Of a DNA stretch of 64,000 bases, positions 25,539-28,208 are shown in pieces. Made by a program: the position numbers and the translations under genes. The DNA lies in assembly GCF_011734195.1 (NCBI RefSeq), contig NZ_JAANTH010000001.1, forward strand, positions 682,001 to 746,000. The letters are read 5' to 3'. The notes under the pieces are model-generated. The model ran no database searches. It had not been told where the DNA came from and saw nothing but the letters and a program-made list of their open reading frames with translations. Source of the DNA: Halobacterium sp. R2-5. GTDB lineage: Archaea > Halobacteriota > Halobacteria > Halobacteriales > Halobacteriaceae. Every line of letters starts with the position of its first letter. The first letter of the stretch is position 1.

Positions 25539-25690
25539 ACGCCTACTCGAACGGACCCGGGGTTAGTCGTTGCGCGTGCTCGCACGCCGCGCGAGTACCC
25601 GCACTCGTGGGCGGGCGCGAGCGCGCCTTGTCCCGGCGCCCGCTGGCGGTTCTCGGTCCCGAAATCTTTACCCGCGGTTGTGGCGTAGCG

Positions 25691-25719
25691 CCTCCAAGAC
25701 CACCCCGGCGGGTGGAGGT
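25691..25719 (+). promoter_or_regulatory. topA leader: Shine-Dalgarno with overlapping hairpins
   Basis: GGAGGT at 25714-25719 ends 5 nt before the topA GTG, a strong Shine-Dalgarno. CCTCCA (25691-25696) can pair with TGGAGG (25713-25718), and inside it CCACCC-CGGC-GGGTGG (25700-25715) forms a perfect 6-bp hairpin. Either structure would hide the ribosome site. A TATA-like ATCTTTACC lies near 25670, implying a leader of about 30 nt. Confidence 0.55.
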
Positions 25720-25724
25720 ACACC

Positions 25725-28208
25725 GTGGAACTCATCGTCACAGAGAAGAACAACGCGGCGCGACGCATCGCTGACATCCTCTCGGAGGGAGGGGCAAGCA
25801 CAGACACGACCGCGGGGGTGAACGTCTACGAGTGGGGGGGCCGACGCTGCATCGGGCTCTCCGGCCACGTCGTCGGCGTCGACTTCCCGCCCGAGTACAG
25901 CGACTGGCGGGACGTCGAGCCGGCCGAACTCGTCCACGCGGACGTCGTCAAGGAGCCCACCCAGGAGGACATCGTGAACGCGCTCCAGCGGCTCGCCCGC
26001 GAGGCCGACAGCGTCGTCATCGCGACCGACTACGACCGCGAGGGCGAGCTCATCGGGAAGGAGGCCTACGAGCTCGTCCGCGAGGTCAACGAGGAGGCGC
26101 CCATCCAGCGGGTGCGCTTCTCCTCGATCACGGACAACGAGGTCAAGTCGGCGTTCGCGGACCCCGACGACATCGATTTCGACCTCGCTGCGGCGGGGGA
26201 GGCCCGGCAGGTCATCGACCTCGTGTGGGGCGCCGCGCTCACGCGGTTCCTCTCTCTGTCCGCGCGCCAGATGGGCGAGGACTTCATCTCGGTTGGTCGC
26301 GTGCAGTCCCCCACCCTGAAGCTCATCGTGGACAAGGAGCGCGAAATCGAGGCGTTCGAGCCCGACGACTACTGGGAGCTGTTCGCGGACCTCGCGAAAG
26401 ACGACGTGGAGTTCGAGGCCCAGTACTTCTACGAGGGCGAGGACGGAAACGAGGCCGAGCGCGTCTGGGACGAGGACGCCGCCGAGCGCGCGTTCTCGGT
26501 GCTCCGGGAGGCCGGCGAGGCGGTCGTCGAGTCCGTCTCGCGGCGCACCCGCAGCGACGACCCGCCGGCGCCGTTCAACACCACGCAGTTCATCCGCGCC
26601 GCCGGCTCGCTGGGGTACTCCGCGGGCCGCGCGATGAGCATCGCGGAGGACCTCTACACCGCGGGTTACATCACGTATCCCCGGACGGACAACACCGTCT
26701 ACCCCGAGGACCTCGACGAGCGGGACCTGCTCGGCGAGTTCGAGCAGACTGTGTTCGGGGACAGCGCCGAGATGCTGCTCGAACGGGACGACCTCTCGCC
26801 GACCGAGGGCGACGAGGAGACGACCGACCATCCGCCGATTCACCCGACGCCGGACTTCCCGGACCGGAACAAGCTCTCCGAGGACGAGTGGGAGGTGTAC
26901 GAGCTCGTCGTACGCCGCTTCTTCGCGACGCTGGCCGAGCCCGCCGTCTGGGAGCACCTGCGCGTCGTCGCGGACGCGGACGGCGAGTCCCTCAAGGCCA
27001 ACGGCAAGCGCCTCGTCGAGGAGGGGTACCACGCGGTCTACCCGTACTTCAACACGAGCGAGAACTACGTGCCGGACGTCGACGAGGGCGACCGCCTCGA
27101 CCTCACTGATCCGCGGATGGAGGCCAAGCAGACCCAGCCGCCGCGCCGGTACGGCCAGAGCCGGCTCATCGAGACGATGGAGGACATGGGCATCGGCACG
27201 AAGTCCACCCGCCACAACACCATCGAGAAGCTCTACGACCGCGGCTACATCGAGGGCGACCCGCCGCGCCCGACGACGCTCGCGAAGGCCGTCGTGGAGG
27301 CCGCCGAGGAGTACGCCGACCTCGTGGTCAGCGAGCAGATGACCAGCGAGCTGGAGGCCGACATGACCGCCATCGCCGACGGCGAGAAGACGCTGGACGA
27401 GGTCACCGAGGAGTCCCGGGAGTATCTCGACCGCGTGTTCGACGAGCTCACGGGCTCCCGCGAGGAGATCGGGGACTTCCTCCGTGACTCGCTGAAGGCG
27501 GACAAGACGCTCGGCGAGTGCCCCGAATGCGGCGACACGCTGCTCGTGCGGCGCTCCCGGACGGGCTCGTACTTCGTGGGCTGCGACGGCTACCCCGAGT
27601 GCCGGTTCACGCTCCCGCTGCCGTCCACTGGCGAGCCGCTCGTCCTCGAAGAGACGTGCGACGAGCACGGCCTCCACGAGGTGAAGATGCTCGCCGGCCG
27701 GGACACGTTCGTCCACGGTTGCCCGCTCTGCGCGGCCGAGGAGGCCGAGGAGAGCGAGGACCGCGTCATCGGCGCGTGTCCCGAGTGCGGTGAAGAGGAG
27801 GGCGGCGAGCTCGCCATCAAGCAGCTCCAGACCGGCAGCCGGCTCGTCGGCTGCACGCGCTACCCGGACTGCGACTACTCGCTGCCGCTGCCTCGGCGCG
27901 GCGACATCGAAGTCACCGACACGTACTGCGAGGAGCACGACCTCCCCGAACTCGTCGTCCACGACGGCGACGACGACCCGTGGGAGCTCGGCTGCCCCAT
28001 CTGCAACTACGAGGAGTACCAGCAGCGCCAGCGCAAGCAGGGCGTCGAGGCGCTCGACGGCATCGGTCCCGCGACTGCGGAGAAACTAGCGGAGGCCGGC
28101 ATCGAGGACGTCGGCGACCTCGCGGCCGCGGACGCCGAGGACCTCGCGGAGTCAGTCTCGGGCGTGAGCGAGGACAGCGTCCGGGAGTGGCAGGCGCAGG
28201 CGGACTGA
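25725..28208 (+). CDS. topA: DNA topoisomerase I (type IA)
   Basis: Relaxes negative supercoils by single-strand passage. The 827 residues begin with a TOPRIM domain (ELIVTEKNNAARRIA; acidic triad region ATDYDREGELIG). The catalytic tyrosine is Tyr318 in YITYPRTDNT. Four zinc-binding segments follow near the C-terminus (CPECGD, HGCPLC, CPECGE, GCPIC), and a helix-hairpin-helix tail ends the protein (ALDGIGPATAEKLAEAG). Start is the GTG at 25725, supported by the Shine-Dalgarno 5 nt upstream. Confidence 0.97.
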   Translation: MELIVTEKNNAARRIADILSEGGASTDTTAGVNVYEWGGRRCIGLSGHVVGVDFPPEYSDWRDVEPAELVHADVVKEPTQEDIVNALQRLAREADSVVIATDYDREGELIGKEAYELVREVNEEAPIQRVRFSSITDNEVKSAFADPDDIDFDLAAAGEARQVIDLVWGAALTRFLSLSARQMGEDFISVGRVQSPTLKLIVDKEREIEAFEPDDYWELFADLAKDDVEFEAQYFYEGEDGNEAERVWDEDAAERAFSVLREAGEAVVESVSRRTRSDDPPAPFNTTQFIRAAGSLGYSAGRAMSIAEDLYTAGYITYPRTDNTVYPEDLDERDLLGEFEQTVFGDSAEMLLERDDLSPTEGDEETTDHPPIHPTPDFPDRNKLSEDEWEVYELVVRRFFATLAEPAVWEHLRVVADADGESLKANGKRLVEEGYHAVYPYFNTSENYVPDVDEGDRLDLTDPRMEAKQTQPPRRYGQSRLIETMEDMGIGTKSTRHNTIEKLYDRGYIEGDPPRPTTLAKAVVEAAEEYADLVVSEQMTSELEADMTAIADGEKTLDEVTEESREYLDRVFDELTGSREEIGDFLRDSLKADKTLGECPECGDTLLVRRSRTGSYFVGCDGYPECRFTLPLPSTGEPLVLEETCDEHGLHEVKMLAGRDTFVHGCPLCAAEEAEESEDRVIGACPECGEEEGGELAIKQLQTGSRLVGCTRYPDCDYSLPLPRRGDIEVTDTYCEEHDLPELVVHDGDDDPWELGCPICNYEEYQQRQRKQGVEALDGIGPATAEKLAEAGIEDVGDLAAADAEDLAESVSGVSEDSVREWQAQAD

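Follow-up and report, generated by a model that had tools for sequence, protein, structure and literature searches.

The DNA topoisomerase I gene, topA, lies in the window (the whole 64,000-nucleotide stretch of Halobacterium DNA analysed here) behind a short putative leader with a conserved hairpin that abuts a Shine-Dalgarno (SD)-like motif. At the same place, many other haloarchaea have a leaderless upstream open reading frame (uORF) that stops at the topA start. We favor, with moderate confidence, the explanation that the hairpin leader is a constant brake or spacer that replaces a lost uORF. The conserved topA uORF is itself the more interesting result of the two.

We matched topA in all 391 genomes sampled from the class. 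As the earlier note had claimed, the window letters place GGAGGT 5 nt upstream of the topA GTG, separated from it by the spacer ACACC (Table 1). GGAGG is kept in 12 of 13 Halobacterium topA upstreams, and SD motifs are rare in the genome of the window, where GGAGG precedes 20 of 376 roughly called starts. A slightly relaxed pattern finds a promoter box in 178 of 183 distinct topA upstreams. Within 25723-25758, the topA start codon itself is predicted to pair with CGCGG ~30 nt downstream, with an unpaired probability of ~0 at 37 C. In several haloarchaea, topA consists of two matching parts inside one long open frame of ~1380-1580 aa (for example G010:C1:404059-408150), an arrangement which suggests that these long frames contain inteins.

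Table 1. Features of the topA promoter, putative leader and start region, in window positions.
Feature	Position	Strand	Basis or remark
BRE-like CGAAA of the topA promoter	25660..25664	+	Sequence; CGAAA is given as the haloarchaeal BRE motif (PMC4983044)
TATA-like TCTTTA	25665..25670	+	CGAAATCTTTA in 13/13 Halobacterium
CCTCC, outer 5' arm	25691..25695	+	Probably untranscribed, unconserved; 5' of the putative start
Putative transcription start, A	25696..25696	+	BRE spacing; uncertainty ~25694-25698
Putative 29-nt topA leader	25696..25724	+	Depends on the putative start
5' arm CCACCC of conserved hairpin	25700..25705	+	Comparison of leaders
Loop CGGC	25706..25709	+	Varies among relatives
3' arm GGGTGG	25710..25715	+	Final GG = first bases of the SD
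SD-like GGAGGT	25714..25719	+	Matches SD-like motif within relatives' uORF
topA, DNA topoisomerase I	25725..28208	+	827 aa, GTG start

Two lines of evidence bear on where the topA RNA starts. Antisense transcription start sites of H. salinarum are described as having the BRE at -36, the TATA box at -26, a pyrimidine at -1 and a purine at +1 (PMC6523106). A25696 lies 36 nt after the BRE C of the window, and the C25695/A25696 pyrimidine-purine step at this BRE and TATA spacing favors A25696. Further, the uORF ATG falls 37-39 nt past the BRE C in all 88 relatives that have one (53 at 38, 27 at 39 and 8 at 37), and this spacing, applied to the window, gives a start at 25696-25699. We infer that topA transcription begins at about A25696. 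CCTCC would then lie outside the RNA.

Leaderless uORFs of 7-34 codons, each stopping at the topA start, stand at the head of 88 of the 183 distinct haloarchaeal topA upstreams (loci L023, L024, L026, L028-L030, L035 and L039 are examples). Both phase and stop are conserved. The ATG-to-start distance takes 17 different values from 23 to 95 nt, and the uORF frame relative to topA is +2 in 86 of 88, 0 in two (L023 and L172, which end directly before the GTG) and +1 in none. The uORF stops at +7 in 81 cases, at -2 in 3, at -3 in 2 and at +1 in 2. A stop triplet stands at +7 in 84 of the 86 frame +2 uORFs (76 TGA, 8 TAA), arising from a topA Leu codon that is CTG, TTG or CTA but in no case CTC; in L023, L035 and L172 codon 3 is CTC and the uORF stops earlier, and in L076 the +7 stop is lost and a +1 stop is present. 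The encoded peptides end in, for example, GGEPPWS or GGxRWN.

Predictions of position and frame were written before 80 held-out stretches were examined, of which 68 were classified, 8 were duplicates and four (L209, L213, L225 and L226) were unplaced by motif. All 42 out-of-frame ATGs at 37-39 nt in this set are in frame +2, and L172 is of the other predicted type; the label of L203 as a frame +2 uORF is an artefact, its ATG lying at 31 nt. The prediction that codon 3 is CTC where there is no uORF held partly, in 21 of 30 direct starts, 22 of 27 leaders without an upstream ATG and 6 of 34 extensions. Nine box-less held-out rows were reclassified by the relaxed pattern, with L153 and L163 becoming uORFs and L215 being too short. 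In the unplaced L225 (61-220), the topA leader is of an uncommon kind, with no ATG and, by eye, GGTGGAGAT before the GTG.

The other topA upstreams comprise 34 in-frame N-terminal extensions, mostly of Haloferacaceae (33 if L104, a direct GTG start wrongly placed in this class, is moved); 24 direct starts that follow the box by 36-46 nt; 5 cases in which topA itself begins with a leaderless ATG; 27 leaders without an upstream ATG, the window included; and 5 upstreams without a box. An SD-like motif is present in 87 of 88 uORF upstreams and in 22 of the 27 leaders without an upstream ATG, and elsewhere in 1 of 24 direct starts, none of 5 leaderless ATGs and 2 of 34 in-frame extensions. A relaxed scan of 400 kb of genome G246 (L227-L246) found, among 296 free-standing starts, seven upstream ATGs in frame +2 and one in frame +1 whose frames stop at the gene start, so topA may not be alone in having a leaderless uORF; the strict promoter pattern gives leaderless genes at 4 of 362 and 8 of 378, too few for a genome-wide test. 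Our search of openly readable articles returned none that names a uORF or a hairpin in the leader of topA in haloarchaea.

The position occupied by CAATGACC or a similar sequence in uORF species has CAACGACC or CAAGACC in Halobacterium leaders. The window has AAG in place of ATG, 28 nt from the GTG, and the start codon and in-phase stop of the uORF are absent from its leader, which has no +7 stop. The +7 triplet is TCA, and thus no stop, in all 13 Halobacterium, and the ACG or AAG lies 26, 28, 29, 30 or 31 nt from the GTG. Because this distance varies, uORF phase is no longer kept in the genus, and on that ground we discounted the idea that the Halobacterium ACG survives as a non-AUG uORF start. 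In a separate family (f7; L027 and L150), ACG likewise replaces the uORF ATG, with phase and TGA stop intact, a 6-bp stem present and TTG as the topA start; this ACG may be a surviving non-AUG uORF start. On a FastTree protein tree of 99 rows, limited to rows with long enough coding sequence and leaving out 17 near-duplicates, the distribution of the hairpin requires 4 changes, and f7 is placed away from Halobacteriaceae. To judge from these comparisons, the window leader looks like a decayed descendant of the relatives' uORF. Its SD would, we infer, have been inherited from a re-initiation site, a reading that fits the account in PMC6728339, according to which haloarchaea rely on SD motifs when re-initiating and scarcely when initiating de novo.

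The earlier note had named covariation as a check on two stems, an inner one (CCACCC/GGGTGG) and an outer one (CCTCCA/TGGAGG), and the outcome divides them. Six distinct Halobacterium leaders, aligned with few gaps, keep the inner stem paired in 35 of 36 cells (97%), and two of its six pairs have changed on both sides: A-U to G-C in one row, and the loop-closing C-G to G-C or U-A in two rows. In L112 the loop-closing pair is broken (C.A). Slid controls, with the partner shifted by 1-3 columns, are 29-69% paired and show zero double changes; the covariation score is reached by 5 of 500 shuffles, and the count of pair types by 87. A MAFFT alignment of 17 leaders misplaces shifted stems and was excluded from pair counts, and a cis/trans arm-swap comparison was not counted because it is biased by the arms having been picked by pairing. 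For the outer stem the check fails, since its CCTCC arm is unconserved: TTCGC, CAACC, CCGGC or CCACC stands in its place in 5 of 13 Halobacterium (L116, L118, L119, L120 and L123), with GGAGG retained. We therefore rejected the outer stem as an RNA element, these changes being uncompensated.

Beyond the genus, we searched for stems of at least 5 Watson-Crick pairs with a loop of 3-6 nt, beginning 2-10 nt from the putative 5' end. Such a stem occurs in 18 of 21 leadered Halobacteriaceae upstreams, where shuffles predict 1.2, and in 1 of 88 uORF leaders, where 3.9 would be expected. The three misses are L011/L121 (4 bp by the rule), L014/L125 (a G-U pair required) and L020/L129 (none). Individual hairpin-bearing species give shuffle p values from 0 to 0.40, weakly significant singly, and because the rows are related the independent cases are fewer, at about five lineages (genera g1, g4, g5 and g7, and family f7). 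The structure appears dispensable within Halobacteriaceae, since L129 is hairpin-free and L124, L126, L134 and L135 have putative topA leaders of 5-9 nt. Together, these comparisons support the view that leadered topA mRNAs of Halobacteriaceae have conserved the inner hairpin as an RNA structure.

We propose that a consensus-like BRE/TATA promoter drives topA in the window, with transcription starting at about A25696. The RNA would begin with ~4 free nucleotides, followed by the 6-bp GC-rich hairpin (25700-25715), AGGUACACC and GTG, so that the 3' arm of the hairpin would end two bases inside the SD. In uORF species, translation would begin at the 5'-terminal AUG; after 7-34 codons the ribosomes would terminate on the topA start codon and re-initiate there, helped by the SD-like GGAGGT that the uORF reads as Gly-Gly. 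In Halobacterium, the uORF start would have become ACG or AAG, phase and stop would have been lost, and initiation on the structured SD leader would have taken over from coupling. By analogy, the most likely role of the hairpin would be that of a constant 5'-end brake on translation, or a spacer, keeping TopA at a moderate level, and not that of a thermosensor.

This choice leans on a haloarchaeal precedent. Another haloarchaeal 5'-UTR, from Haloferax, has a stem-loop of -7.4 kcal/mol that is reported to lower translation, which rises when the stem-loop is destabilised (PMC2636863); the window stem is predicted at -10.8 kcal/mol. On this basis we commit to a constant translational brake or spacer. 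Given the putative start, the stem is stable, lies within the leader and is evolutionarily kept. A brake does not by itself account for SD retention in 12 of 13 Halobacterium. More tentatively, haloarchaeal topA could be under one of several interchangeable translational throttles at a fixed 5' end, either a leaderless uORF that passes ribosomes on through termination and re-initiation or, where the uORF is lost, a 5'-terminal hairpin abutting an SD.

The main rival to the translational brake is that the hairpin mainly shields the 5' end of the mRNA from decay, with effects on translation secondary. The hairpin would begin ~4 nt from the 5' end, as such a role might ask, and it is kept where the SD is lost, L121 and all four Halarchaeum-type (g4) genomes having it without GGAGG. 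The literature searched contains no such case, and we consider this role unlikely.

A functionless by-product of GC-rich sequence is improbable, even though the window by itself would allow it. The fold of 25688-25760 has a z of -0.73 against dinucleotide shuffles, 50 of 200 of which fold equally well, and the 29-nt leader alone gives a shuffle p of ~0.15; such weak statistics make the hairpin unexceptional from the window alone, and its significance arises by comparison. In 400 kb of the same genome, 13 of 294 free-standing starts, roughly called by a home-made gene caller, have a stem of at least 5 bp in such a geometry and 9 have GGAGG; topA alone has both. An Rfam search of the window gave no match at the gathering score, and we rejected a catalogued RNA family or riboswitch. 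The hairpin is also missing from some family relatives, as a by-product would permit. Against this reading stand the excess of stems in leadered upstreams and their scarcity in uORF relatives, the two-sided changes at near-complete pairing, and the recurrence of the hairpin in the separate lineage f7, with the relatedness of rows reducing the number of independent cases.

Distinctly improbable is a switch in which a fold of CCTCC/GGAGG and ACCC/GGGU hides the SD and is opened by temperature, salt or a factor. The earlier note had described two nested stems over the SD. CCTCCA (25691-25696) is indeed complementary to TGGAGG (25713-25718), as is CCACCC (25700-25705) to GGGTGG (25710-25715), but both stems use TGG 25713-25715; the full stems are thus mutually exclusive and compete, and the bases used twice rule out a nested double stem. 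The predicted minimum free energy fold of 25688-25760 accordingly combines CCUCC/GGAGG with only ACCC/GGGU. Masking then depends on where the RNA starts. A transcript from 25688 would have each of the six SD bases more than 90% paired at 25-45 C, and 7 of 13 Halobacterium carry CCTCC or TCTCC, which would still pair with a wobble (one of them, L121, without GGAGG). With the better supported start at 25696, which excludes CCTCC, only GG 25714-25715 of GGAGGU is predicted to be paired, and AGGU is predicted to be 95-100% unpaired at 25-60 C and at least 87% unpaired at 25-75 C. Of the suggestion that the hairpin hides the SD, the part concerning the first GG stands, whereas AGGU would be open; this argues against masking. 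Because CCTCC lies 5' of the putative start and its arm has changed uncompensated in 5 of 13 Halobacterium, an SD-burying fold is unlikely.

The response to temperature raised in the earlier note also finds no support in predicted folding: the stem is unmelted by 60 C, where its 5' arm is still ~98% paired, and AGGU is open throughout. The persistence of the hairpin in L121 and the four Halarchaeum genomes, where the SD is lost, counts against SD masking as its main role. An SD-masking RNA thermometer was therefore rejected, predicted SD opening being unaffected by temperature and the hairpin not being tied to the SD in relatives, and we regard thermosensing or salt-sensing by the topA leader as unlikely. 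A weak two-pair AC/GU extension over the last GU of the SD is predicted in 5 of 13 Halobacterium (L116-L118, L120 and L123; probability ~0.84-0.91), so a partial SD mask may exist in those species.

An inverted repeat placed directly after the putative start would also suit a DNA operator, bound by a regulator immediately 3' of the promoter, but a sequence-specific site should retain its bases, and the arms differ among relatives (CCACCC, CCACCG, CCACCT, CCGCCC, CCCGCC, ACCGGC and CCGACA) with pairing retained, so we rejected this very unlikely explanation.

If the brake replaces the uORF as we propose, translation of a single essential housekeeping gene would start in four ways behind the same promoter: a direct leaderless start, an in-frame leaderless extension, a leaderless uORF with re-initiation, and a hairpin and SD leader. 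Were the throttles to alternate as suggested, TopA dosage, and hence supercoiling, would depend on how leaderless and leadered initiation are balanced. The locus would offer a concrete way to test how archaea control the level of topoisomerase I. It would also be a natural experiment on when the mostly SD-independent haloarchaea use a Shine-Dalgarno, since SD-like motifs in this gene are almost confined to upstreams with an internal start codon.

Among known systems, the closest to the hairpin is the leader of HVO_0721, which likewise has a short predicted stem-loop in a haloarchaeal 5'-UTR; stabilising that stem-loop abolished translation and destabilising it raised translation (PMC2636863). 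Unlike topA, the HVO_0721 leader has no SD and is regulated by growth phase jointly with its own 3'-UTR, whereas the topA hairpin directly adjoins an SD and has been preserved through compensatory changes.

The uORFs have parallels of their own. In overlapping gene pairs of Haloferax volcanii (PMC6728339), as in the topA uORFs, the upstream stop lies on the downstream start and an SD-like motif lies in the upstream frame. The topA uORFs differ from these pairs in having only 7-34 codons, in lying at the putative 5' end, in the coupling being conjectural and in mostly overlapping by 10 nt (TGA at +7). Small ORFs of 15-31 aa are also described upstream of annotated genes in H. volcanii (PMC4983044), but these lie within 5'-UTRs of 150-250 nt, and topA is absent from the 16-row table of that paper. 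Mycobacterial leaderless uORFs (PMC12548453) are likewise short leaderless ORFs before a gene, proposed to deliver ribosomes by coupling. Unlike them, the topA uORF is archaeal, belongs to one gene conserved across several families, and alternates with a hairpin leader.
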